DNA from: Streptomyces sp. RKND-216
GTDB taxonomy: Bacteria > Actinomycetota > Actinomycetes > Streptomycetales > Streptomycetaceae
Assembly: GCF_004795255.1 (NCBI RefSeq)
Contig: NZ_SSBQ01000002.1
Coordinates: 5,304,001 to 5,368,000, forward strand
Direction of reading: 5' to 3'
DNA length: 64,000 bases
The notes below the pieces were generated by a model. That model was not told the DNA's origin and did no database searches. It worked only from the letters and a program-made list of their open reading frames with translations. Both the position numbers and the translations under genes were made by a program. This document shows, in pieces, positions 53 through 12,164 of this stretch; position 1 is the first letter of the stretch; every line of letters starts with the position of its first letter.

Positions 53-820
53 TCAGGTTGGCCGAGGGGCGGCGAGCTCGGCGACGACTCGGCGCAGGGG
101 CAGTTGCAGTCGTCGTCCCGGGCGCGCCCAGCCAGCGAGAGAACGCTGGGCGGCCTCCGTCCGATCGGGCGTGACGTGCGGCAGGTAGAGGGCGTCGATC
201 AGGAGGGCCGCGGCGTGATGTGATTCGATGCGGAGGGCGAAGATCCGACGTTCGTCGGAGCGGACGCGGAAGCCCGACTCACTCAGCAGTGCGGAGAGTC
301 CGTCGCGGGCCTGCGGATTGGGCCACGGCTGGTGCGGCGTCCGCAGGGGGAGCATCACCCGGCCCCAGCCGAGCAACCCGGTGAGGGACAGGCCCGACTG
401 GGCGGGGACCAGTGCAGCCAGCGTGCCGCCTGGCTGTAGAACACGTCGGATTTCTTCCAGGACACGCGACAGCGGGGTGAGGACGGGCAGACACATCGCC
501 GCACTGACGACTCCGATGCTTCCGGAGGCGATGGGCAGGGCGTCGGCGGAGGCGCGCAGCAGCGGCCCGCGCTGCCGCATGGCGGCTTCGGCGAGTTCTT
601 CCTCGGACGAGTCGACGCCGATCCAGTCGGTGTCCGGCAGCAGTGGGCGGGTGGGCGCCGTACCGCAGGCGAGGTCGAGTACCGTTCCCTGCGCCGGCAG
701 AAGAGATTCGGCCAGCCACGCGTGCGGGTCGGAGTCGGCCTGCTGGAACAACCGTTCGGTGATGCCCGGCCGGGCGCCGTGGTAGGCGGCGATGTAGCGC
801 CGCCATTGCTGCTCGTCCAT
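53..820 (-). CDS. Class I SAM-dependent methyltransferase, substrate unknown
   Basis: A 255-residue methyltransferase. Residues 47-56 (VLDLACGTAP) are the glycine-rich SAM-binding motif I, GVDSSEEEL supplies the acidic residue that follows strand 2, and LEEIRRVLQPGGTLAALVP is the usual post-motif III region of the small-molecule methyltransferase fold. I chose the ATG preceded by a GGGGAAG Shine-Dalgarno; a 44-residue upstream extension of the frame is low-complexity and looks like leader DNA. Only two cysteines are present, so the cysteine set of arsenite methyltransferases (ArsM) is absent. It is transcribed away from the oxidoreductase to its right and could belong to the same accessory pathway, but its acceptor cannot be told from sequence. 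Confidence 0.75.
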   Translation of the reverse strand: MDEQQWRRYIAAYHGARPGITERLFQQADSDPHAWLAESLLPAQGTVLDLACGTAPTRPLLPDTDWIGVDSSEEELAEAAMRQRGPLLRASADALPIASGSIGVVSAAMCLPVLTPLSRVLEEIRRVLQPGGTLAALVPAQSGLSLTGLLGWGRVMLPLRTPHQPWPNPQARDGLSALLSESGFRVRSDERRIFALRIESHHAAALLIDALYLPHVTPDRTEAAQRSLAGWARPGRRLQLPLRRVVAELAAPRPT

Positions 821-1162: not shown

Positions 1163-2572
1163 ATGAGCGCATACGACCTGGTGGTTATCGGCGCCGGCAG
1201 CGCCGGACTGACGGCGGCACGTACCGCCGGACGATTCGGTGCGCGCACCCTCCTGGTGGAGCGGGACCGGCTGGGCGGTGACTGCCTGTGGACGGGGTGT
1301 GTGCCCAGTAAGGCGCTGCTGCATGCGGCGGCGGAGGTGCAGGCCGGCCGCCGCGTCGGCGCTTATGGGTTCCCGGCCGTCTCCGGGGCCGCCGACCTCC
1401 GGGCGACCATGATCCACGTGAGGCAGGCGATCGCGGCGATCGAACCGCACGATTCGCCCGAGGCACTCCGCCCGTTCGGTGTGGAAGTCGCCCATGGTCC
1501 GGCCGAGTTCACGGGGCCGCGTACCCTCGCTGTGGGTGACCGGCGGGTCTCCTTCCGATACGCGGTGATCGCCACCGGCTCGTCCCCGGCCCTGGTGCCG
1601 ATCCCCGGCCTGGCCGAGGCCAATCCGCTGACCAGCGACACTGTATGGCAGCAGTCCGAACTGCCCGGACGGTTGGCGGTGCTGGGCGGTGGACCCATCG
1701 GGTGCGAACTGGGCCAGGCGTTCGCCCGGCTTGGTGCGAAGGTGACCCTGGTCGAAGCGATGGACCGGCTGCTGCCACGAGAGGAGCCCGGCGCTTCACG
1801 GGCCGTACGCGAGCGACTGGAGGAAGAGGGCGCCACCGTGCTGACGGGTTACCGGGCCGAAAAGGTGGACGATGGCGCCCTGTACGGGCCGGGTGGCCCG
1901 GTTCCCTTCGACGCCCTGCTCGCCGTCACCGGGCGCCGCGCCGACACCGCGGGACTCGGCGTAGAGGCGGCCGGCGTGGCACTGACCGACCGCGGCGACG
2001 TCCAGGTCGATACCCGACTGCGTACGAGCAACTCGCACATCTATGCGGCCGGGGACGTCACCGGCCGGTCCGCCTTCACCCACTTGGGCGGGGTGCAAGG
2101 CGGGGCCGCCGCCACGGATGCGCTGCTCGGCGTGCGGCGCCGGATCGATGACGACGCGGTGCCCGCGGTCACCTATACGGACCCTGAGATCGCCCGGGTC
2201 GGGCCGACCGCCGACGAGGCACGCGCCCGGCGGGGCGAGAAGGTGCGAGTCGTCTCCTTGGAACACGACAGGGTCGACCGCGCAGTCGTCGACGGCCGTA
2301 CGGAGGGCTTCACCACCCTGGTGCTCAGCCCGCGTGGGAAGATCGTCGGCGCGACGGTCGTGGCGCCACGGGCCGGGGAGACCATCGCGCACCTGGCGAC
2401 GGCGGTACGGCTCGGCTGGACGCCCTCGCAGTACGCCAGGACTGTCCACCCGTACCCCACGTACGCCGATGGCCCCTGGCACGCCGCGCTGACCGACGTC
2501 TACGCGCGGCTTGCGCGCCGGCAGGGAACCATCGGCGCCCTACTGGCCCTGCGGAGGAAGCTCCGGCGCTGA
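1163..2572 (+). CDS. FAD-dependent pyridine nucleotide-disulfide oxidoreductase (mercuric reductase/lipoamide dehydrogenase-like)
   Basis: A 469-residue flavoprotein. An N-terminal FAD-binding motif (VVIGAGSAGL, residues ~7-16) is followed by the redox-active disulfide C-x4-C in GGDCLWTGCVPSK (residues ~41-53). A second Rossmann motif (LGGGPIGCELG) binds NAD(P)H, IYAAGDVTG is the C-terminal FAD motif, and the dimerisation domain ends with VHPYPTYADG, which carries the conserved His-Pro of the family. It lacks the N-terminal heavy-metal domain and the C-terminal cysteine pair of true MerA, so mercury reduction is not supported. The internal ATG is preceded by GGAGG; a longer frame upstream has no family similarity. 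It may supply electrons or disulfide exchange to the neighbouring radical SAM cluster, which is inference. Confidence 0.85.
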   Translation: MSAYDLVVIGAGSAGLTAARTAGRFGARTLLVERDRLGGDCLWTGCVPSKALLHAAAEVQAGRRVGAYGFPAVSGAADLRATMIHVRQAIAAIEPHDSPEALRPFGVEVAHGPAEFTGPRTLAVGDRRVSFRYAVIATGSSPALVPIPGLAEANPLTSDTVWQQSELPGRLAVLGGGPIGCELGQAFARLGAKVTLVEAMDRLLPREEPGASRAVRERLEEEGATVLTGYRAEKVDDGALYGPGGPVPFDALLAVTGRRADTAGLGVEAAGVALTDRGDVQVDTRLRTSNSHIYAAGDVTGRSAFTHLGGVQGGAAATDALLGVRRRIDDDAVPAVTYTDPEIARVGPTADEARARRGEKVRVVSLEHDRVDRAVVDGRTEGFTTLVLSPRGKIVGATVVAPRAGETIAHLATAVRLGWTPSQYARTVHPYPTYADGPWHAALTDVYARLARRQGTIGALLALRRKLRR

Positions 2573-2850: not shown

Positions 2851-3126
2851 TCACGCGAGTACCTCGGTGTCCGGGCCTGTCGGTGGCTCTGCGCCGGAGG
2901 GGACGGGTGGGCCTGCGGCCTTGAGGTGGTGCGCCGTCCGGCGGGAGACGTTGAGGTCCCACGGGCTGAACAGGCGCACGTGGCCCCAGGACCGTACGTG
3001 CCGCGCGCCACGGAGGACCCGGCTTCGTAGATGGTGAACGGCAGGCCGGGTGCTGGCACAGGCGAGTGCGGCGTCGAGGCCGACCGGACCGGCGCCGAGG
3101 ACCGCGACGTGCGGTGTATCGCTCAC
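2851..3126 (-). pseudogene. Truncated, frameshifted NAD(P)/FAD-dependent oxidoreductase
   Basis: The fragment starts at a GTG (VSDTPHVAVLGAGPVGLDAALA) with an intact GxGxxG dinucleotide-binding motif. Near 3053 the homologous reading moves to a second frame (GLPFTIYEAGSSVA), and near 3012 it returns to the first (ARHVRSWGHVRLFSPWDLNV). It then ends about 90 residues in, where the family normally runs to about 450 residues. Two compensating indels plus loss of most of the gene make it non-functional. It is the last member of the minus-strand radical SAM operon, so the complete pathway probably once used a flavin oxidoreductase here. Confidence 0.7.
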
Positions 3127-3179
3127 GGTGTGCCCTTCTGCAGAGGAGGTGGGCGTGAGGGGCGGGTGGTGCGGAAGGG

Positions 3180-4862
3180 TCATACGGCGCAGTGCACGGG
3201 GCGGGGGAGACTGCCGTCGGTGAGGCGGGCGGCGAAGAAGCGTTCGGTCACCAGTTGTTTGCCGCGTTCCAGTGGGGTTCCGGCGGCGGCCAGGTGCAGG
3301 TCGGGGCTGGTGTCCAGGTCGGCGCCGGCGGGGTGCCAGTGCAGTCCGTCGGCGGTGACGGTGAGTTCGGGGATGCTGGTGTCCTCGCTGATTTCCTCAC
3401 CGTGGTCGGAGAAGCCGCGGCGTAGCAGCGGGCGTACGGCGAATCGGTCGGCCGGTAGCCCGAGTCCGTTCAGGAGCTCGGCGACAGCGGGGATCTCGGC
3501 CGTGTTCTCCGGTGTTTCGGTGAGGGCGACACGTGGCGGCAGTCCGAGGTCGATGAGGTGGCGAATGCCTTCCATGGTGCGCTGCCAGGACCCGGCTCCT
3601 CGGTGGAGGTCGTGGGTGGCCGCCGTGGCGCCGTCCAGGGAGGTCTGGAGGGTGAGCTTGCGTCCGGCGAGGTGGGTGAGACCCTCGGCCCGGCGCCCGC
3701 GCAGCAGCATGGCGTTGGTCATGACGACGGTGGGCACCTGGGCAGCGGCGTGGTCGAGGAGTTCGAGGATGTCGGGGTGGAGGAAGGGCTCGCCGCCGGT
3801 GAGGTAGAGCTCGGTGAATCCTGCGGCGACTGCCTCGTCGACCAGGGCGTGGAAGGTGTCAGTGGGTAGGCTGCGCGGTACTGCTCGGGGTGAGGAGGCG
3901 ACGGCGCAGTAGTCGCAGGCGAGGTTGCAGTGGAAGTTGGTGTAGAGCCACAGCCGGGTCGGAAAGTACGGGCTGCCGAACAGGGGGATGACGGGTCGCT
4001 CGTCTGCCCTGTCCTGCGGGGCAGAGCTCGTGGGGCCCCAGCCGTCGTCCGTGGGCTGGAATCCGTTCGGGAGCGTGCTGCGGTAGAGGTGGAAACGGCC
4101 CCGCGAGCGTTCGGCGGGCGGAAGGATCTCCAGACACGTGGTCCACCATCCGGTCTCGATGGTCTCGGCGAAGATGCCGGGCAGCCCCGCTTCGCGCATC
4201 GAGCGGGCCTGGGCGCGCCAGTCGTAGGCGAGCGGGACGAGTTCGGCCCGGGCCTGCCCGGCGCCGAGGTCGAGGATCGCGTACCAGACCTCGCGGCGAC
4301 CGTCGTTCGCAGGCTTGCCGACGACGCCGACGTTGACCACGAGGGCGTCGCCGATGCGGCGCTGCCACGGCATCCCGCTGTGCGTGCACAGCACCACGTC
4401 CGCGCCACTGGCCTCGGTGCGCTGCCGGTGCTGGTCCTCGGGCAGGGACTCCCACCAGAAGTCGTTGAGCGCCAGGGTGGAGCCGTGCACCATGTGCACG
4501 TCGGTGCCGTCGAGGGTCTCCCGGTGCTCGGTGGGCAGCGTGCCCATCCAGGCCGCGAAGTCACGGCCGGTGGTGGCGAGGGTGTGGTCGTAGACGAGCT
4601 GGGCGTACTCGTTGTCCTTCGGGTCGCGGTAGCCGCAGCCGCAGTCGGTGTCGCCACGGGCGAGGGCCCGGTCGTAGTTCCCGGCGATGCACTCCACGCC
4701 GTGGTCGGTGAGGATCGGCCACAGGGCGTCGACCTCGGCGCCGAATCCTCCGAGGTCGCCCAGGCAGTACAGCCGTTCGGCGCCACGGGTACGGGCGTCG
4801 TCGACGAATGCCTGCAGGGCGTACGGGTTGCCGTAGGGGCCGCCGCATACTGCGATCCGCAT
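3180..4862 (-). CDS. Metallophosphoesterase-like/radical SAM fusion protein
   Basis: A 560-residue two-domain protein. Residues 1-~215 follow the YfcE-type phosphoesterase fold: CLGDLGGFG, AGNYD, MVHGS, VVLCTHSGMPW and VVNVGVVGKP align with the family's GD, GNH, H, GHTH and VNPGS blocks. The first metal-binding D-x-H is replaced by G-x-Y (CGGPYGN) and GNH by GNY, so ordinary two-metal phosphoesterase activity is doubtful. Residues ~300-560 are a radical SAM domain with the [4Fe-4S] ligands Cys312, Cys316 and Cys319 (CNLACDYC) and the SAM-contacting GGEP motif. The fusion suggests action on a phosphorylated or nucleotide-like substrate. It lies 41 bases downstream of the MFS gene in the same operon. 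Substrate and product are unknown. Confidence 0.75.
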   Translation of the reverse strand: MRIAVCGGPYGNPYALQAFVDDARTRGAERLYCLGDLGGFGAEVDALWPILTDHGVECIAGNYDRALARGDTDCGCGYRDPKDNEYAQLVYDHTLATTGRDFAAWMGTLPTEHRETLDGTDVHMVHGSTLALNDFWWESLPEDQHRQRTEASGADVVLCTHSGMPWQRRIGDALVVNVGVVGKPANDGRREVWYAILDLGAGQARAELVPLAYDWRAQARSMREAGLPGIFAETIETGWWTTCLEILPPAERSRGRFHLYRSTLPNGFQPTDDGWGPTSSAPQDRADERPVIPLFGSPYFPTRLWLYTNFHCNLACDYCAVASSPRAVPRSLPTDTFHALVDEAVAAGFTELYLTGGEPFLHPDILELLDHAAAQVPTVVMTNAMLLRGRRAEGLTHLAGRKLTLQTSLDGATAATHDLHRGAGSWQRTMEGIRHLIDLGLPPRVALTETPENTAEIPAVAELLNGLGLPADRFAVRPLLRRGFSDHGEEISEDTSIPELTVTADGLHWHPAGADLDTSPDLHLAAAGTPLERGKQLVTERFFAARLTDGSLPRPVHCAV

Positions 4863-4903
4863 GAATGGTTCTCCAAGAGGGTGCGGGAGTTCGGTTCACT
4901 GGC

Positions 4904-6335
4904 TCATGTAGGGGTGGCGGTCAGCGATTCCAGAGGACGAGTGGCGGCTTCGACACCGCCGCGCAGCGCGAAGACGCCGATCGCAGCGACTCCGGCCAAC
5001 CAGCAGGCGACCACCAGCAGGTAGGAGGCGGTGGCGCCGATCCGGGTAGCCAGGTCCGGCAGCAGGAGGGTGCCGACGATGGCGCCCACGCGGCCGACGG
5101 CTACGGAGAAGCCGACACCGGCGCCGCGCAGATGGGTGGGGAAGAGTTCCGTGAAGGTCGGGTAGGCGGTGGTCCAAGCGGCGGTGGCGAAGCCGTTGGC
5201 GGCGACGAAGGCGAGCGTCACCCACAGTGCACTCCCGCTCGCGGTGGCCCAGGCGAGAAGGCCGACACCGGCTGCGGCGAGTGTGTAGGAGACCGCCACC
5301 GTCCGGTGGCGGCCGAGCCGGTCGAAGACCAGGGACATCGCCAGGCCGCCGACGAGCGCGCCGACGTTGCCGACGATGAAGAAGAACGGCACTTGGGCGT
5401 GGCCGATATGCACTTCCTCGAGGACGACCACAGACAGCAGCGCGAAGATGCCGTAGTAGCCGAAGGCTTCAGCCAGGTCGAGCACCGAACCGAGGGCAAG
5501 CCGGCCACGGTGGTGGCGCAGCAGCTCCGCAAGTGCCCGCCGAGCGCCGGGAGACGCGGGCAGCGGGGGCGTGCTCCGCATCTCCCCTTCTGCCGGGGTT
5601 CGGTCCTCCCGGGGCCAGTCCGGAACGCGCCTCCATGCGGGCGACGATCGTCTCTGCCTCCTCGTACCTGCCCTGTGAGGCCAGCCAGCGGGGTGACTCG
5701 GGGATACGGCGACGGAAGACGAGGACGACCAGTGCTGTCAGCCCGCCGATCACGAACAAATAGCGCCAGGCGACCGCGTCGTTCAGCGCGAGCGCGTCGA
5801 GCAGGAGGTAGGCGAGCAACCCGGCGAGGATCGCGCCGGCAGACCAGAAGTTCATCACCACGGCCCCCGCCTTGCCGCGTACGCGGCAAGGCATCAGCTC
5901 CGCGATCGCCGTGTTGACGACGGCGTACTCGGCGCCTACACCGAGCGCGGCCAGGAACCGGAAGCCGTAGACGAAGTCCAGTGTGGGGCTGAACCCGGTC
6001 AGCGCGGTGAATCCCGCGTACCAGAGGAGCGTGAGGACGAACATCCTGCGCCGCCCGAACCGGTCGGCGAGGTGACCTCCGGCCAGGGCTCCGAGCAGAA
6101 TGCCGGTGAGCCAGACCGCCAGGACTGCGTTCTGCTGGAAGACGGAGGCGTTGAAGTGTTCGCCGAGCGGGCCCACCGCGCTCCCGAACAGCTGGACTTC
6201 GAAGGAGTCGAAGAGCCAGCCGGCGCCAAGTGCCGTGAGGATGGTGGTATGCAGGCCGTTCCACGGCAGGCGGTCCAGGCGTGCAGCGAGTTCCGTTGGC
6301 GCGGGGGAGTGTGCGGAAGCTTCGTCGACGGTCAT
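4904..6335 (-). pseudogene. MFS transporter (sugar-porter type), disrupted by one frameshift
   Basis: A 12-helix major facilitator of about 476 codons split by a single frame change. The 5' part (from the ATG at 6335) contains GGHLADRFGRRRMF between helices 2 and 3, PCRVRGKAG, and the sugar-porter signature PESPRWLASQGRYEEAE. The 3' part, in the next frame, contains LAEAFGYYGIFALLS, DRLGRHRTVAVS and FPTHLRGAGVGFS. The frames cross near 5605-5625, inside a CCCCGGG run, consistent with one inserted base; repairing it would give SGLAPREDRTPAEGE across the junction. Both halves are otherwise intact. Its start overlaps an ATGA that ends the preceding glycosyltransferase in one frame. It probably exported the product of the cluster. 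Confidence 0.75.
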
Positions 6336-7089
6336 GGTTGAGAAACCCCCGAGGGCCGGTCGACTTCCGATTGCGCCGCGGGAGCCGGGGTGGGCCGGCC
6401 GCGTACCGGTTGCAGATGCGTTCGGGGTCGACTCCGGCGAAGTAGAGCAGTTTCAGGTACTGCATGAAGGCGATCATGCGCCAGGTGCCATGATGCAGGA
6501 GGCGGCGAGCGGAGGCGGTCGAGGTGGCAGGCAACACGCACAGACGCCCGCGCCGGTGCAGCCGTCGGGAGATCTCCAGGTCTTCCATGAGCGGTAGGGG
6601 AGGGAAGCCGCCCAGTTCCTCGAAGACGGTGCGGCGGACGAACATCGCCTGGTCGCCGAAGATGTGGTGCAGGCGGCGGGCCCGAGCGTTGGAGGTCCGG
6701 GCCAGATAGTTCAGTGCCGTCGTGCGGTGGTCGAAGCGGAGCGTGAGACCGCCGCCCACGACCCGGGGATCGGTGAGGCAGACGCGGATCTGCCGCAGTG
6801 CGTCCGGGTCCACCACGGTGTCGGCGTGTACGAACCACAGCACATCTCCACTGCTTACCTTGGCGCCGGCATTCATCTGGGCGGCTCGTCCGCGCGGGGC
6901 CTGCACCACGCTCGCCCAGGGGCGGGCCAGTTCTGTCGTGCCGTCCTCGCTGCCGCCGTCCACGACGATCAGTTCGCAGTCAGGGAAGTGCCGGCGCAGC
7001 CGCCGCAGCGTGGGCTCGATGGTCGCCGCCTCGTTGAGTACCGGGACCACGAGGGACACGCTCAGCTTCCCGGCGGAGGACCGGTTCAC
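6332..7089 (-). CDS. Family 2 glycosyltransferase, TIGR04283 (rSAM/arsenosugar-associated) type, aberrant C-terminus
   Basis: The GTG start overlaps the previous stop (GTGA). Residues ~10-40 (LSVSLVVPVLNEAATIEPTL, then ELIVVDGGSEDGT) are the GT-A nucleotide-sugar fold, FVHADT is the DxD-type metal motif, and GDQAMFVRR, MEDLEISRRL and the tail MQYLKLLYFAGVDPERI are characteristic of the TIGR04283 group. Similarity ends near residue 232, where members normally stop. Here the frame runs on for some 380 codons through the MFS gene to a stop at 5218, with arginine-rich junk sequence. A neighbouring frame stops at 6332 in an ATGA overlap with the MFS start, so a small indel in the tail probably displaced the stop. 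The catalytic part looks intact. NCBI's family name links it to arsenosugar biosynthesis. Confidence 0.75.
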
Positions 7090-7769
7090 GGTCGCTCCGC
7101 GGGCCGGAGCATGGCGGCAACACGGGTGGGGAACTCACCGTCGGCCCCGGTGGAGAAGGCGTCGAGGTGTGCGGCGGCGTCCTCGGGTGTGTCGAGGTCC
7201 CGTAGTTCGGGTAGCGCAGCGATGGTCAGCCCCTCGTCCTCGGCGAGGGCGCGAGTGGCGGCGAAGACCCGGTCCCCGCCCCACAGGTCCGGTTCCAGAG
7301 CGAAGAGCCCCGTCTGTGGACGGTTCATGCCGATGAGGTAGTAGCCGCCGTCGCGTGCCGGGCCCAGGACGACGTCGCGGCTTTCCAGGGCCTGCAGTGC
7401 GGTGGTGAGATGACCGGCGGTCAGGGTGGGTGCGTCTGTGCCCATGACCAGCAGGGGCCCGGCGCCGGAAGCGAACACGTCCTCGACTGCGGCTGCGAGT
7501 CGCAGTCCCAGGGCTCCTGTGCGCTGCGGCCGTAGTTCGACGTTCGCAGGCACCAGCGCGGCCAGCGCGTTGCGCGCGTCGGCCGGGGCGTGGGCCAGGT
7601 GGCTGCGGAGCCCGTGTCCGGTGGTCAACGCGAGCGTGTGGCGAATTAGCTCGGCCTGGAGAGCGGCACACCCCTCCGGGCCAAGCAGCGGATGGAGCCT
7701 GGTCTTGACTGTACCCGGCTGCGGCGCCTTCGCCATCACCAGAGCCGACGGAACACCGGTCGCCGTCAT
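7086..7769 (-). CDS. TIGR04282 family (DUF2064) glycosyltransferase/nucleotidyltransferase-like protein
   Basis: A 227-residue protein of the DUF2064/TIGR04282 family, which has a GT-A fold like MobA and CofC. Diagnostic blocks are AKAPQPGTVKTRL (residues ~13-25, nucleotide-binding loop), GTDAPTL (metal-binding Asp), GPARDGGYYLIGM, and the C-terminal DLDTPED. Length is normal. The gene overlaps the phosphorylase stop by four bases (ATGA) and the next glycosyltransferase by four bases (GTGA), so the three are translationally coupled. TIGR04282 and TIGR04283 proteins co-occur with radical SAM enzymes in arsenosugar-type loci; here it may activate or transfer a sugar released by the phosphorylase. 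The precise substrate is unknown. Confidence 0.8.
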   Translation of the reverse strand: MTATGVPSALVMAKAPQPGTVKTRLHPLLGPEGCAALQAELIRHTLALTTGHGLRSHLAHAPADARNALAALVPANVELRPQRTGALGLRLAAAVEDVFASGAGPLLVMGTDAPTLTAGHLTTALQALESRDVVLGPARDGGYYLIGMNRPQTGLFALEPDLWGGDRVFAATRALAEDEGLTIAALPELRDLDTPEDAAAHLDAFSTGADGEFPTRVAAMLRPAERP

Positions 7770-8554
7770 GAGCCGAAGCGGTAGACGAATCCGGCGGGCG
7801 TGACCGTCTCCAGCGCAGGGAGGGCCTGCTCGGCGAGCGTCGCGAAGATCTCGGTGCTCGCAGCCATGCGCGCCAGCAGCGTCTCCACGGGTTCGGGTTC
7901 CGGCGCCACACCGTTCGCGTAGTCGGTGACATAGCCGACGAGTGCCATCGGCAGTTCCGCCTCACCGGCCAGTACGACCTCCGGGCCCGCGGTCTGGCTC
8001 ACCGCCGTCACGCCCGCCTGGGCCAGGGCACGGATCTCGCTGCGGCTGTTGAACCGGGGCCCGTCCACATGCCCGTACGTGCCCCCGTCCAGGACCGGGG
8101 CGCTGGTGTGCGTCGCTGCCGCGGTCAGCTCCTGGCGCAGCGGCTCGCTGAACGGCCGGTCGAAGATCCAGTGGCCCCGGCCCGCTGCGCCGGGTGCGTC
8201 GTACCAGGTACACGTGCTGCCGTCGGGCAGCCGGTTGGCGGGGAAGTGCAGGTCATCGAAGACGATCAGTGATCCGGGCTGAGCGGCCGGGTCCGTGCCT
8301 CCGCAGACGGTGAAGGACACCAGGGCGTCCACCTTGCAGGCGAGCAGAGCGGCGAGGTTCGCCTTGTGCCGCACCTGGTGGGACAGCTGGTGGTGCCCGG
8401 TGCCGTGGCGGGACAGGTACACCACTTCGGTGTCCTTGAGGTGGCCTTCGGCCACGGTGACGGTGCCGTGGTTCGTGGTCACCGTCCGCTCGGTCCGGTC
8501 GGACTCGTGTGGCCAGGTGTAGCTTCCGGAACCGGTGATGACTCCTATGCGCAT
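7766..8554 (-). CDS. MTA phosphorylase-like nucleoside phosphorylase (PNP/UDP family)
   Basis: A 262-residue nucleoside phosphorylase, usual length for 5'-methylthioadenosine phosphorylase (MTAP). The N-terminus GVITGSGSY and the YLSRHG segment form the phosphate site, GGTYGHVDGPRFNSRSEI is the ribose/base region, and VGYVTDYANGV corresponds to the base-recognition loop. In adenine-specific MTAPs this loop reads TDYD; here the second acidic residue is replaced (TDYAN), suggesting altered base or 5'-substituent preference. The ATG follows AGGAG at five bases. It lies 26 bases after the radical SAM gene. An MTAP homologue beside radical SAM genes suggests phosphorolysis of a 5'-modified 5'-deoxyadenosine, releasing adenine and a sugar 1-phosphate (inference). 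Confidence 0.8.
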   Translation of the reverse strand: MRIGVITGSGSYTWPHESDRTERTVTTNHGTVTVAEGHLKDTEVVYLSRHGTGHHQLSHQVRHKANLAALLACKVDALVSFTVCGGTDPAAQPGSLIVFDDLHFPANRLPDGSTCTWYDAPGAAGRGHWIFDRPFSEPLRQELTAAATHTSAPVLDGGTYGHVDGPRFNSRSEIRALAQAGVTAVSQTAGPEVVLAGEAELPMALVGYVTDYANGVAPEPEPVETLLARMAASTEIFATLAEQALPALETVTPAGFVYRFGS

Positions 8555-8580
8555 GTGCTCTCCTGCCGTTGTTCGAGTGG

Positions 8581-10011
8581 TCACTGCGGGTGGGGTGGAT
8601 CGACTGGTGCGCGGTTCGGCGTGCGGACCTCGACGAGCGGGAGGAGCGTGCGCAGTTCCGCGTTCTCGGCCAGGTCCAGCACGGCGTGTTGCACGCAGGC
8701 GGGCACCAGCGTGCCGTCTTCCGGGTGAGCCATGGCGTAATGGCAGGCGGTCAGCCGTTCCTGTGTCTCGCGCAGCCTGGGGTCGTCCGCCTGCTCGCCT
8801 CGCCGCATCATCTCCCATGCCGGCGCGACGTCTTCGGCGTCCATGAACTGGTGCATGACGAAGGTGACCGGCCGGACGCGGAGGCGGTTCCGCAGCAGTC
8901 GCCCCACGCCCACGCGGCGCACAGTACGGCCGAGCCAGCGCACCGCGAGGGGCACCGCGGCCGGGTGCCGGGCCACGGCCCTGGCCAGACGGACAGCGAG
9001 GACAGCGGGCGGGGTGCCGGTGAAGACCGTGTTGCCGAAGTAGCGGAAAAAGGCGTCGCGCACCACGAGGTCCCGCCGGTCGCCGCCGTCGAGGACGGGA
9101 TACCAGCGCCTGCCCACGTAGAAGCCGTAGGCGGTACGGTTGCAGCGCACGTCTCCGTTCTCGAACACACGGTAGTCCAATGGGGTGCCGGCGCCGCGTT
9201 CGATCTCGGCCCACACCGCGTCCGGCGTGGCCTCACGGTAGGACTCCTTCCAGCGCCGTTCGTCGCCGAGGAAGGCGGCGGGCTGGAAGGAGAACATGCC
9301 GTAGCCCATGGCGTGGCAGTCCCGGATCACGTCGGCGACCTCCTCCAGGTTCCCCGGGGTGACCGTCATGTTGTGCGCCAGGAAAAACCGCACCCCGTGC
9401 TCCCTTCGCAGCCGGACGAACATGTCGGTGAACCGCCTGCGGTAGAGGTTCAGCGCCTGCTCGCTCTCCGGCCGTTCGATGCCCCGCCGTCCGTACATGA
9501 ATTGGTCGAAGTGCGCGGCGAAAGACAGCCGGTGGACGCGCCGCCTGCCGTCCGGACCGAGTGCCAGGGCTGTGAGGTACTCCTCGTCGAAGTCGCCGTG
9601 GGTGAAACTCATCGGCTCCCGGCCGTGCTCGCGCATCACCTCCAGGGCCGCGGCATGGTCGTCGGGCGGCAACAGGCTGACCTCGCCGCCGATGAGCTGG
9701 GCGTGCGCCCGGGGCCCGCGCAACCTGCGCAGCAGCGCCATCTGCGCTCTCACCTGCTCCAGGGTGTGCGGGCCGTCCACCCGCACCCTGTTGGCGTCCC
9801 GCGAGTGGTAGCACGGGGTGCACTTCAGGTTGCACTTCGGGAAGACCCCATGGGTCCCCTCACAGCCGACCGCCTTCCGCCCCAGCACCTGCCCCGGCGT
9901 TTTCGCCACCTCGGGGAGCTCCGCCCACCGGCGCTCGAGGACGTCGGCAAGCTCGGGATCGGTCGGGCGCGTGGCACGTTCCAGGGCCCGCAACGTGGTC
10001 AGTATCCCCAT
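8581..10011 (-). CDS. Radical SAM protein, uncharacterised
   Basis: A 476-residue radical SAM enzyme. Cys60, Cys64 and Cys67 (CNLKCTPCYH) ligate the [4Fe-4S] cluster that cleaves SAM. LIGGEVSLLPPDD carries the GGE SAM-contact motif, and IRDCHAMGYGMFSFQP lies on the later barrel strands. An additional cysteine (GCEG) lies just before the cluster loop, and the C-terminus holds CNRTAYG, CHYAMAHPEDGTLVPAC and an arginine-rich helix, so an auxiliary cluster or membrane contact is possible but unproven. The ATG overlaps the upstream MauE-like stop by one base (TGATG). Homologues I can recall lack an assigned reaction. It is probably the entry enzyme of the operon, forming a carbon bond or a 5'-deoxyadenosyl adduct. 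Confidence 0.75.
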   Translation of the reverse strand: MGILTTLRALERATRPTDPELADVLERRWAELPEVAKTPGQVLGRKAVGCEGTHGVFPKCNLKCTPCYHSRDANRVRVDGPHTLEQVRAQMALLRRLRGPRAHAQLIGGEVSLLPPDDHAAALEVMREHGREPMSFTHGDFDEEYLTALALGPDGRRRVHRLSFAAHFDQFMYGRRGIERPESEQALNLYRRRFTDMFVRLRREHGVRFFLAHNMTVTPGNLEEVADVIRDCHAMGYGMFSFQPAAFLGDERRWKESYREATPDAVWAEIERGAGTPLDYRVFENGDVRCNRTAYGFYVGRRWYPVLDGGDRRDLVVRDAFFRYFGNTVFTGTPPAVLAVRLARAVARHPAAVPLAVRWLGRTVRRVGVGRLLRNRLRVRPVTFVMHQFMDAEDVAPAWEMMRRGEQADDPRLRETQERLTACHYAMAHPEDGTLVPACVQHAVLDLAENAELRTLLPLVEVRTPNRAPVDPPHPQ

Positions 10012-10490
10012 CAGATGCTCTCTCTCCTTCCTGTACGCAGGGACGGTCGTTGGCGCCGTCCCTCCGATGCCGATTTCTGGACGTTCGCCTGGTGCCGACG
10101 AGCTCCGCGTAGCAGCATCGCTGCGTACAGCAGCATCAGCGCGTCCTCCACCAGTACAAACCACCGCAGCGGCTGGGACAGGTACACGCCGAAGCAGCCA
10201 CAGTTGTCGAGTTCCAGTCCGCGTGCGAACGCCTGCACCGCCAGCGCCGCCCACAACACGGACACGCCGGTGTAGATCCACACCGGCGTGAGAGCCCTGG
10301 ACCGCGGCCGGACCAGGAACCAGACACCGCCCGCTGACTCGGCCGCGACGAGAGCCACCGCCAACACGGTCGACGCTGCCCCACCTGTCACGCCGTAGCT
10401 GCTGAGGATGTCCGGCATCGCACCGAAGGAGAACAGCTGGCCGAGAGCCATCGCCACCAGAAGTACGCCCAGAACCAGCCGGAGAATCAC
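10011..10490 (-). CDS. MauE/DoxX-like four-helix membrane protein
   Basis: A 159-residue integral membrane protein with four hydrophobic segments (LRLVLGVLLVAMALGQ, VLAVALVAAESAGGVWFLV, WIYTGVSVLWAALAVQAFA, WFVLVEDALMLLYAAML). The extracytoplasmic loop motif LDNCGCFGVYLSQPL, with a C-x-C pair followed by a WxxxxEDA helix, is typical of MauE-type DoxX relatives involved in disulfide or quinone redox chemistry. The GTG start is preceded by GGAGG at nine bases; the longer frame upstream is not hydrophobic and unlikely to be coding. It is the first gene of the radical SAM operon. It may feed reducing equivalents to the redox enzymes, which is inference. Confidence 0.7.
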   Translation of the reverse strand: MILRLVLGVLLVAMALGQLFSFGAMPDILSSYGVTGGAASTVLAVALVAAESAGGVWFLVRPRSRALTPVWIYTGVSVLWAALAVQAFARGLELDNCGCFGVYLSQPLRWFVLVEDALMLLYAAMLLRGARRHQANVQKSASEGRRQRPSLRTGRRESI

Positions 10491-10964
10491 CGCCCTGCAC
10501 CTCCAGGACGGCGCATGATCCCGACTGCGGCACCGGCGGCGATCCCAACAACCCGGCCACGCCCTGTCACCGTCGGGTCGTCCACATTCATCAGCCCGTA
10601 TCCTCACCCGTCGCCGAGCCGACGGACGTGCTCCACCGGCGTTGCCACGAGGAGGAACCCGTTGGAGCCGCCACGGCCTTCCCTCCTGGCTACACCAGTC
10701 CCGTCAGCGGGTCACCGAGACCCGCCGTGTCGGGGAAGGACCCGACACTGGACCGGGCTCCCGCTTGAAAACTGGGTCGACGTCGGAATTCCATGCCAGC
10801 TGGTGGGTAACCAGCTACGTCCCCGTCCGGGCGATCTGGAGGATTGGCTCGACGCTCAAGCGTGATGACACAGATCCCCATTCTCCAGACGTTGGATTGG
10901 CGCGTTCTCGGTTCGTGTCGAATCGTCCATGGATTGAGAGCTCGTAACAGGATCATGAGCGTGA
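10491..10964. other. Intergenic region between the radical SAM operon and the IS5 remnant
   Basis: About 470 bases with no frame that shows family similarity or a credible ribosome binding site beyond the one for the MauE-like gene. It should contain the operon promoter, firing leftward. Its base composition is visibly less GC-rich than the genes around it. The last ~30 bases (GAGCTCGTAACAGGATC) may be the outer end of the IS5-family element. Confidence 0.4.
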
Positions 10965-11117: not shown

Positions 11118-11122
11118 CTAGA
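11117..11122. repeat. Left copy of 6-bp target site duplication CCTAGA
   Basis: CCTAGA occurs here and again at the other end of the IS481 element. It fits the NCTAGN target duplicated by IS481-type transposases. Confidence 0.85.
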
Positions 11123-12071
11123 TGTGTTGTTCGGTGAGGTTGGTGACGCGGCTGGCTGGCACGTTGCCGCTGATGCCGGTGTGGGGTCGGTGGTAGTTGT
11201 ACCAGTCGAGCCAGTGGGGGAAGGCGGCTTGGCGTTCGGCTTCTGAGGTGTAGGGCTGGTGGTAGGCCCATTCTTCCAGCAGGGTGCGGTGGAAGCGTTC
11301 GACCTTTCCGTTGGTCTGGGGTCGCCAGGGCCGCGTCCAGCGGGGGCTGATGCCCAGGTCACGGCAGGTGTCGCGCCAGGTGTTCTTGGTGTAGGACCAG
11401 GCGTTGTCGGTCAGCACCCGCTCAACGGTGATGCCCCGCGCTGCGAACCAGGCCGTAGCGCGGGTGAGGAAGCCGGCGCAGGTGTTGGCCCTCTCATCGG
11501 GCAGGTCCTCGGTGTAGGCGAGTCGTGTGTGGTCGTCCAGCGCCGTGTGCAGGAAGGCGTAGCCGGTCTGGGTGCGGTTCTTGCGTCCGGCTGCCCGGCC
11601 CAGGACCTTGTGGCCGCCGCCGTCGGGGATACGGCCGAGTTTCTTGACATCGATGTGGATCAGTTCACCGGGTCGCTCGTGTTCGTAGCGGCGTATCGGC
11701 TCGCCGGTGGCGCGGTCCAGCGTCGCGAGTGCGGGCATGTGGTGGCGGTGCAGGATGCGGTGGCAGGTGGAAGGCGCCAGGCCCGTGCGGACGGCCAGTC
11801 GCAGAGGGCCGATGCGGTGCTCGCGCCGCAGTTGCAGCACGCGGTTCTCCAGCTCGGGAACGGTCTGCCGTGGGCAGTGGTGGGGGCGGCTGGAGCGGTC
11901 ACACATTCCGGCTTCGCCGTGCCGGCGGTAGCGGCCTGCCCAGCGGGCGGCGGTGGTGTGAGCGACCTGGAACCGCTCGGCTGCCCGCCGCAGCGGCCAC
12001 CCGTCGTCCACGACACAACGGGCCAGACGCAGGCGACCGGTCGGAGTCAACGGGGCGTTACGGTGGGACAC
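11118..12071 (-). CDS. IS481-family transposase
   Basis: A 317-residue DDE transposase. The N-terminal winged HTH region reads RLARCVVDDGWPLRRAAERF, then HTTAARWAGRYRRHG. The catalytic triad is visible as HIDVKKL (first Asp), VLTDNAWSY (second Asp) and NGKVERFHRTLLEEW (Glu), followed by the family ending YNYHRPHTGI. I prefer the GTG giving VSHRNAPLTP, the usual start of the family; an ATG 13 codons earlier is also open. The stop codon TAG falls inside the duplicated CTAG target, so translation is terminated by target DNA rather than by the element. The gene appears intact and possibly active. Confidence 0.9.
   Translation of the reverse strand: MSHRNAPLTPTGRLRLARCVVDDGWPLRRAAERFQVAHTTAARWAGRYRRHGEAGMCDRSSRPHHCPRQTVPELENRVLQLRREHRIGPLRLAVRTGLAPSTCHRILHRHHMPALATLDRATGEPIRRYEHERPGELIHIDVKKLGRIPDGGGHKVLGRAAGRKNRTQTGYAFLHTALDDHTRLAYTEDLPDERANTCAGFLTRATAWFAARGITVERVLTDNAWSYTKNTWRDTCRDLGISPRWTRPWRPQTNGKVERFHRTLLEEWAYHQPYTSEAERQAAFPHWLDWYNYHRPHTGISGNVPASRVTNLTEQHI
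11123..11147 (+). repeat. IS481 terminal inverted repeat, transposase 3' side
   Basis: Begins TGTGTTGTTCGGTGAGG and ends TTGGTGAC. It is the partner of the repeat at 12165-12189. Confidence 0.85.
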
Positions 12072-12164
12072 GAGGGCCTCCTGGCGTTCGGCGTAGATGT
12101 CGCAATCCACACCGGAACCAGAAGGCCCTCACCTCATGCAAGGACCACAAGCAGCGTGTCGCCT

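Follow-up and report, generated by a model that had tools for sequence, protein, structure and literature searches.

According to PMC12159101, arsenic is adenosylated by a radical S-adenosylmethionine (SAM) enzyme during arsenosugar biosynthesis, whereas the bisenarsan route of Streptomyces is SAM-independent, its bsn cluster encoding no enzyme that depends on SAM. The arsenosugar clusters in which ArsS (TIGR04167) and ArsM accompany the transferases TIGR04282 and TIGR04283 are the closest described systems to an operon of Streptomyces sp. RKND-216, located on the minus strand (10490-2851) of a 64,000-nucleotide stretch, here called the window (G000:C2:5304001-5368000, G000 being this 5.6-Mb genome). 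Both kinds of locus contain a nucleoside phosphorylase, the two transferases, a flavin adenine dinucleotide (FAD) reductase, a TVP38/DedA protein and a major facilitator superfamily (MFS) protein (not every gene at each locus), and the clusters of Burkholderia and Cupriavidus also contain a homologue of rSAM1, a radical SAM protein of the operon. In contrast to them, the Streptomyces operon has a phosphoesterase-radical SAM fusion in the place of ArsS, and arsM has been lost from this genome. We consider it fairly likely that the operon is an actinobacterial arsenosugar-type cluster in which the fusion has displaced ArsS, and which is in decay in this strain; it would resemble bsn in serving organoarsenic metabolism in Streptomyces.

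Other described systems resemble single components of the operon. The C-terminal part of the fusion matches positions 72-325 of the 326 positions of the Rv1681 radical SAM model (NF049973) with 271.7 bits, under the cut-off of 380, and, unlike Rv1681, it is joined to a degenerate phosphoesterase; we know of no function assigned to Rv1681. The only NCBIfam matches of rSAM1 at E<=0.01 are TrsS (NF045646, 17.1 of 490 bits) and the tetraether lipid synthase Tes (NF045702, 15.6 of 450 bits; structure 7tol), both far under the cut-offs. In hopanoid synthesis HpnH and HpnG follow the same two-step logic, a radical SAM adenosyl transfer and then a phosphorylase, but the fusion reaches only 48 of 225.05 bits with the HpnH model and the phosphorylase 28.8 of 187.1 with that of HpnG, so neither protein is a member of these families.

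The operon and its counterparts at ArsS loci

When single genomes of each species in GTDB r220 were scanned, an approach confined to close relatives, 38 named rSAM1 loci were obtained, 30 of them titled Streptomyces (the sampled relatives being streptomycetes). Genes were counted in these loci at >=50% query coverage and 38% identity, several loci being cut by contig ends. The features of the window, with the number of the 38 loci that have each gene, are the following:

53-820, minus strand: class I methyltransferase, best NCBIfam match the DVU_1556 family (56.9 bits, cut-off 155); 20 loci
1163-2572, plus strand: FADred, a FAD/NAD(P) disulfide reductase of the MerA/lipoamide dehydrogenase kind; 32 loci
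2851-3183, minus strand: remnant of FADox, a FAD oxidoreductase, N-terminus only (110 residues), frame-shifted; FADox in 23 loci
3180-4862, minus strand: MPE-rSAM, the fusion of a degenerate calcineurin-like phosphoesterase to an Rv1681-type radical SAM domain, proposed substitute for ArsS; 27 loci
4904-5581, minus strand: C-terminal piece of a broken MFS exporter gene; MFS in 3-4 loci
5469-6335, minus strand: N-terminal piece of the same gene, in another frame
6391-7089, minus strand: conserved part of a TIGR04283 family-2 glycosyltransferase (231.5 bits, cut-off 182); 28 loci
7086-7769, minus strand: TIGR04282 CofC-like nucleotidyl/glycosyltransferase (182.8 bits, cut-off 134); 22 loci
7766-8554, minus strand: nucleoside phosphorylase of the methylthioadenosine phosphorylase (MTAP) family, divergent from housekeeping MTAP (PF01048, 88.3 bits, cut-off 25.1); 27 loci
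8581-10011, minus strand: rSAM1, a radical SAM protein (PF04055, 30.0 bits, cut-off 29.5) of a family without a curated model
10011-10490, minus strand: MauE/DoxX-like membrane protein (PF07291, 48.7 bits, cut-off 27); 23 loci

The operon runs from MauE to the FADox remnant, with overlaps of 1-4 nucleotides at four junctions (MauE/rSAM1, phosphorylase/TIGR04282, TIGR04282/TIGR04283 and fusion/FADox remnant). An earlier sequence-only reading of this DNA had given this minus-strand order, which open reading frame (ORF) and profile searches bear out for all named genes, and both the disulfide reductase and the methyltransferase that it placed at the flank are present. Its GTG start for MauE at 10490 is preferable to the start of the longest ORF at 10607, because the PF07291 match begins only at residue 40. 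Its naming of the two transferases agrees with their scores, both above the NCBIfam cut-offs as in ArsS-type clusters, with TIGR04283 frame-shifted C-terminally, and its fusion is recovered with Metallophos_2 (45.6 bits, cut-off 27) and Radical_SAM (PF04055, 69.2 bits, cut-off 29.5). The phosphorylase it called an MTA-phosphorylase homologue is one at the level of the family, and falls short of the MTAP model itself (TIGR01694, 143.2 of 274.85 bits), while the FAD oxidoreductase and MFS porter that it listed as genes are a 110-residue remnant and a reading frame broken in two.

The genes are inherited together. Among 297 sampled genomes of the family, rSAM1 occurs in 12, the fusion in 12 and both in 11 (Fisher p = 4e-18, uncorrected for relatedness), the two exceptions being G132, where the contig is cut, and G141, where the fusion matches only in part, which confirms the co-inheritance that the sequence-only reading had proposed to look for. 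ArsS does not reach its cut-off in any of the 12 rSAM1-positive genomes, this one included; the model does so in Synechococcus elongatus among 14 control genomes, and in 11 of the 12 its best sub-threshold match is the fusion itself. Conversely, ArsS passes its cut-off in four of 296 sampled Actinomycetota, all of one family (f25), and none of the four has the fusion, for which the same query does match in the wider survey of the phylum.

Three of the four f25 loci were examined, and they present TIGR04283, ArsS and then an MTAP homologue 42-45% identical to that of the window, with TIGR04282 matched in one of the three. A plasmid of Burkholderia glumae carries, in about 14 kb, an annotated arsS, MTAP, TIGR04283, TIGR04282, MFS, a sigma factor with a zf-HC2 protein, DUF427 and a homologue of rSAM1 (27.7% identity, hidden Markov model E 7e-28), followed by a TVP38-FAD reductase fusion. 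Cupriavidus sp. KK10 has on one strand, consecutively, genes for ArsM-like (33% identical), AhpD-like, ArsS, FADred, TVP38, TIGR04283, TIGR04282, MTAP, rSAM1 and DUF547 proteins (assigned by tblastn in an unannotated record, the AhpD-like one by eye), with two ArsC-like genes and one ArsI-like gene about 5-6.5 kb further on. Thus, an MTAP-family phosphorylase and TIGR04283 lie near genuine ArsS in all five ArsS loci examined, and TIGR04282 in three of the five; the Burkholderia and Cupriavidus loci were reached through rSAM1, so that the set is not unbiased and these two say nothing about how frequent rSAM1 is in ArsS operons. FADred homologues 41-42% identical to that of the window occur in the Roseomonas, Burkholderia (in the TVP38 fusion) and Cupriavidus clusters, and FADox is not shown to be common to both phyla, because the FAD genes near the transferases of Burkholderia and Roseomonas give no blastp match to it at E 1e-3. 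By gene content, the Streptomyces operon has much of what the Cupriavidus and Burkholderia clusters contain, except that the fusion substitutes for ArsS in the gene set.

In Actinomycetota, the rSAM1 and fusion surveys are read as one draw (346 genomes, 274 of them good, 218 genera) because their sample sizes are identical; rSAM1 occurs in nine (one partial), the fusion in seven (one the radical SAM part only) and both in three (G000, G395 and G436). Two genomes of one distant genus (G382 and G413) keep MFS, fusion, TIGR04282, TIGR04283, FADred, phosphorylase and DedA together, without rSAM1 and without ArsS. At eight other loci (L030, L036, L051, L054, L057, L088, L090 and L094), rSAM1 and FADred are found with some of a phosphatidyltransferase, DedA and an importer, and the phosphorylase and transferases are absent from the stretch examined around rSAM1 (several being short contigs). 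These two sets of loci suggest that the phosphorylase/transferase module follows the fusion or ArsS and not rSAM1, an argument that is a phylogenetic profile on few independent lineages.

Other genes found in the 38 named loci are those of an extracytoplasmic function (ECF) sigma factor (16), DedA (16), a CDP-alcohol phosphatidyltransferase (10) and three ATP-binding cassette (ABC) importer subunits (seven each). A plasmid-borne cassette in streptomycetes was rejected, as rSAM1 matched one Roseomonas record (31.2%, E<=1e-10) and the fusion one Mycolicibacterium record (E<=1e-40) out of 72,556 plasmids.

Two radical SAM proteins and a divergent phosphorylase

The fusion consists of a calcineurin-like phosphoesterase followed by the Rv1681-type radical SAM domain, whose cluster cysteines (C312/C316/C319) are kept in 12 of 12 aligned sequences, identifying it, with its PF04055 score, as a radical SAM protein. 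Phosphoesterases of this family normally have D-x-H-G-N at a motif that here reads GGPYGN in 11 of the 12, and GGPYAN in the remaining one (L047); Roseomonas has GGPYSN there, and L093, L101 and L104 have GGVY. A second motif, DCGCG, is kept in all 12 and in Roseomonas, L101 and L104, so this part of the protein may bind rather than hydrolyse. On the Roseomonas plasmid the phosphoesterase and the radical SAM protein are separate genes, in a run with the rSAM1 homologue and TIGR04282; close by are MauE, FADred, VTT and a transferase resembling TIGR04283 (165 bits, cut-off 182). The predicted structure of the fusion (mean pLDDT 61.4, pTM 0.46) is too poor for a structure search.

A plasmid of Mycolicibacterium vanbaalenii (NZ_CP126902.1) encodes an Rv1681-type radical SAM protein that shares 47.6% identity with the fusion over 38% of the latter, next to a PhnD-like binding protein, CcdA, a disulfide oxidoreductase, an MFS protein 43-44% identical to that of the window, and a second radical SAM protein with a methyltransferase; it is possibly a relative of the two-radical-SAM arrangement.

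rSAM1 has its cluster cysteines (C60/C64/C67, CxxxCxxC) in 18 of 18 aligned sequences and passes PF04055, and four more cysteines (50, 290, 423 and 439) are invariant. The TrsS model gives its Burkholderia and Roseomonas homologues 106.3 and 100.4 bits. It was rejected as an ArsS homologue: the ArsS model is not among the NCBIfam matches of the window protein at E<=0.01, nor among the three families matched by 15 aligned members. Foldseek with the rSAM1 model gave a best E of 0.015, and a sequence search of the PDB a best E of 0.68, to an unrelated protein. rSAM1 is thus a second radical SAM enzyme with a distant likeness to TrsS and Tes, and it is found with genuine ArsS as well. It is probably not the adenosylating enzyme. 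A haloarchaeal radical SAM protein, on a plasmid of Salinirubellus sp. SYNS196 (NZ_CP147842.1), matches the Roseomonas rSAM1 homologue over 40% of its length (34.4%) and adjoins DUF547 and a methyltransferase gene.

The roles of the two enzymes might be exchanged within the same pathway, rSAM1, though of another family, adenosylating as an analogue of ArsS while the fusion carries out an extra step. rSAM1 is directly upstream of the phosphorylase in Streptomyces, the place held by ArsS in f25, arsM lies between MauE and rSAM1 in Streptomyces sp. PH10-H1 (L025), and rSAM1 is slightly more widespread than the fusion in the Actinomycetota survey. Against this, Burkholderia and Cupriavidus have its homologues alongside genuine ArsS, which would make a second adenosyltransferase redundant there; no phosphorylase or transferase is found in the stretch around rSAM1 at L030, L036, L046, L051, L054 and L057 (some cut by contig ends), and G382 and G413 keep the phosphorylase and both transferases without it. 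This exchange of roles seems to us unlikely, though worth keeping in mind. ArsS is missing, and in G382 and G413 the phosphorylase and transferases stand beside the fusion although rSAM1 is lacking; we therefore assign the adenosyl step to the fusion.

The phosphorylase contains SQT[AC]GPE, conserved in all 14 aligned cluster phosphorylases (nine of this cluster type, two of G382/G413 and three of f25), where the five nearest solved MTAPs have MT-x-x-PE. It was ruled out as a universal diagnostic motif, the Burkholderia and Cupriavidus phosphorylases having the canonical form. Radical SAM enzymes release 5'-deoxyadenosine as a by-product, and the operon could be an ordinary methylthioadenosine/5'-deoxyadenosine salvage operon or a radical SAM cluster modifying a ribosomally synthesized peptide, with an MTAP-family phosphorylase for salvage and with MauE and the disulfide reductase in redox maturation. 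The phosphorylase is far under the MTAP cut-off, salvage needs neither transferases nor an exporter, and intergenic gaps are short in compact loci (small ORFs were not searched for), all of which makes both forms of this explanation very improbable.

arsM in relatives and decay in RKND-216

An arsM-type gene is present over at least half its length in 19 of the 38 named loci and partially in three more. Of the 297 family genomes, eight have this arsM type, and six of these eight also belong to the 12 rSAM1-positive genomes (Fisher p = 3e-8); in the two without rSAM1 it lies among relatives of ArsR, ArsC, ACR3 or ArsI, neighbours that support its identity. One arsM product obtains 191.7 of 263 bits with the model for arsenite methyltransferase, and most of its length is covered by a match to the arsenosugar ArsM model (106.5 of 400). 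Among 20 arsM ORFs called, 17 keep SNC and 16 ECLAGA, cysteine stretches that bind arsenic in ArsM. ACR3, ArsC and TrxR occur beside the L026 cluster, ArsR near that of L059 and ArsI near that of L041, each in one of the 38 loci at E 1e-20. ArsM as such is absent from the RKND-216 genome, which has a scrap of its last 48 codons (G000:C2:252009-252152, L062), 0.25 Mb from the contig start between other genes, 52% identical over 48 residues and ending in GCC, other hits in the genome being weaker (26-35 bits). The sequence-only reading had argued that, with no arsM present, the acceptor may not be arsenic; in view of the relatives that argument loses its ground, since arsM is missing here because this copy is decayed.

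The nearest relative found is the locus of Streptomycetaceae bacterium MP113-05 (L053), whose rSAM1 is 96% identical and which has only arsM fragments, beside MauE; its homology with the window stops at 10763, next to those fragments. FADox has 388-417 residues in 18 of the 20 loci where it was called and ends here after about 110 codons, with length differences from L053 near 3128, 3054 and 3008 and about 2.4 kb of L053 (17416-19862) missing from the region. The MFS gene is in two frames here and in a single 478-residue frame in L053, and TIGR04283 loses its frame near the C-terminus (about 6350), its open frame extending past that length change to 5218. In many relatives the methyltransferase is reversed and FADred, MauE, rSAM1 and the remainder follow in one direction, whereas in RKND-216 and L053 the operon is inverted relative to FADred.

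The ratio of nonsynonymous to synonymous substitution (dN/dS) against L053 is 0.14-0.25 for rSAM1, phosphorylase, TIGR04282, fusion, MFS and FADred, which points to selection during much of the separation from L053, and higher for MauE (0.60) and TIGR04283 (0.63, a value affected by the frame change). A long-dead operon is rejected by the six low values, MauE and TIGR04283 fitting less well. Sequencing error may account for single-base length changes and would not explain the 2.4-kb loss. The cluster is, from its reading frames, predicted to be inactive or becoming so, and is not an intact pathway in this strain. In some relatives, for instance Streptomyces tardus P38-E01 and Streptomyces sp. 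SM1, it appears undamaged.

An integrase/transposase-like gene, named by eye, lies upstream of the operon (11118-12110, minus strand). Just left of the window (L061:13291-17175, G000:C2 about 5299290-5303174) are genes that have homologues next to the cluster in relatives: an ECF sigma factor, anti-sigma-like genes, another FAD disulfide reductase and the small gene F21, from a family with a 52% match to DUF427 of Burkholderia.

The DedA, importer binding protein, ATPase and phosphatidyltransferase of some relatives match Escherichia coli YdjX/YdjZ, YnjB, YnjD and YnjF (32-38% identity), and the permease of some loci has no match to YnjC at E 1e-3. The E. coli K-12 ydjXYZ-ynjABCDEF stretch (1833401-1841403) thus has DedA, importer and phosphatidyltransferase homologues of some rSAM1 loci; its function is not known to us, and the sharing may hint at its substrate.

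These matches, to a stretch annotated without arsenic genes, also bear on an acceptor other than arsenic, in which case the core, made up of both radical SAM enzymes, the phosphoesterase, MauE, the flavoproteins and TIGR04282/04283, would make an adenosyl-derived sugar on an acceptor such as selenium, sulfur, a phosphonate or a lipid, arsM being a frequent but separate neighbour. Several actinobacterial loci have no linked arsM, and the Roseomonas plasmid, with both radical SAM genes, the phosphoesterase, MauE, FADred, VTT, TIGR04282, the TIGR04283-like gene and a phosphonate-type ABC importer, shows no arsM, arsS or MTAP among the features in 32 kb (the PLSDB gene table being incomplete). The presence of arsM in half of the named loci, of genuine ArsS in Burkholderia and Cupriavidus, and of acr3, arsC, arsR or arsI at a few loci argues for arsenic, and leaves another acceptor, in our estimation, quite unlikely.

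A candidate arsenosugar route

Gene content, linkage, co-inheritance, the absence of ArsS, arsM in relatives and the damage to this copy are read directly from the sequences; the linkage is strong, and every chemical step is one that we infer. In an arsenosugar-type pathway, ArsM (encoded in many relatives, lost here) would methylate arsenite, and the radical SAM domain of the fusion would add 5'-deoxyadenosyl to the methylated arsenic, the task of ArsS elsewhere. The MTAP-family phosphorylase could then exchange adenine for phosphate, giving 5-arsinoyl-5-deoxyribose 1-phosphate, a sugar phosphate that TIGR04282 (CofC-like) may activate and whose sugar TIGR04283 may hand to an acceptor. The flavoproteins would control the redox state of arsenic, with export of the product left to the MFS protein, and rSAM1, the flanking methyltransferase and DedA (with the CDP-alcohol phosphatidyltransferase in some relatives) might carry out further modification, perhaps on a lipid. 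The logic of the sequence-only reading, adenosylation followed by phosphorylase and transferases, fits this scheme, as all five loci with genuine ArsS have an MTAP-family phosphorylase and TIGR04283 close to it. What it called a possible unassigned adenosyl-sugar pathway is in our reading of arsenosugar type, with ArsS displaced, and so not wholly unassigned.

Several findings weigh against the fusion acting as an ArsS substitute in an arsenosugar cluster, among them the place of rSAM1 upstream of the phosphorylase noted above. TIGR04167 is only the 19th of the NCBIfam matches of the fusion (50.6 of 300 bits), so many other enzymes are at least as close to its radical SAM domain as ArsS is. 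The phosphorylase of Burkholderia scores above a canonical MTAP cut-off, and that of Cupriavidus carries the canonical motif; therefore, the phosphorylase could be a salvage enzyme recruited to the cluster. arsM is absent from 16 of the 38 named loci (some cut by contig ends), no intact copy is present in RKND-216, and it was not seen in the stretches examined of G382, G413, G395, G436 and Roseomonas; an arsM-like gene lies elsewhere in G382 and G436, and none in G413, G578 and G395. General ars genes are rare neighbours of the cluster.

A further proposal joins the two radical SAM enzymes, the fusion replacing ArsS and rSAM1 coupling an arsenosugar or methylarsenic unit to a lipid carbon. In it, the degenerate phosphoesterase, with its DCGCG thiol motif kept and its DxH metal motif lost, might be an arsenic-holding platform, and a Tes-like rSAM1 bearing an additional site of four cysteines might act with the YnjF-like phosphatidyltransferase to give arsenosugar phospholipids or other arsenolipids. 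This combination is speculative and we would not expect it to hold in full; if true, rSAM1 would be an arsenolipid-forming enzyme of Actinomycetota and Pseudomonadota.

The open-access literature (subscription journals lying mostly outside that search) gave no account of this cluster, of rSAM1 in ArsS operons or of MTAP beside ArsS, and to our knowledge the route from the ArsS product to the finished arsenosugar has not been worked out in bacteria. The MTAP-family phosphorylase and the transferases found beside ArsS or the fusion are candidate, assayable enzymes for the steps after the ArsS product, and the comparison brings to light, in rSAM1, a radical SAM enzyme able to travel with genuine ArsS. 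If the arsenosugar assignment is correct, a second organoarsenic route for Streptomyces, besides that of bisenarsan, would follow.

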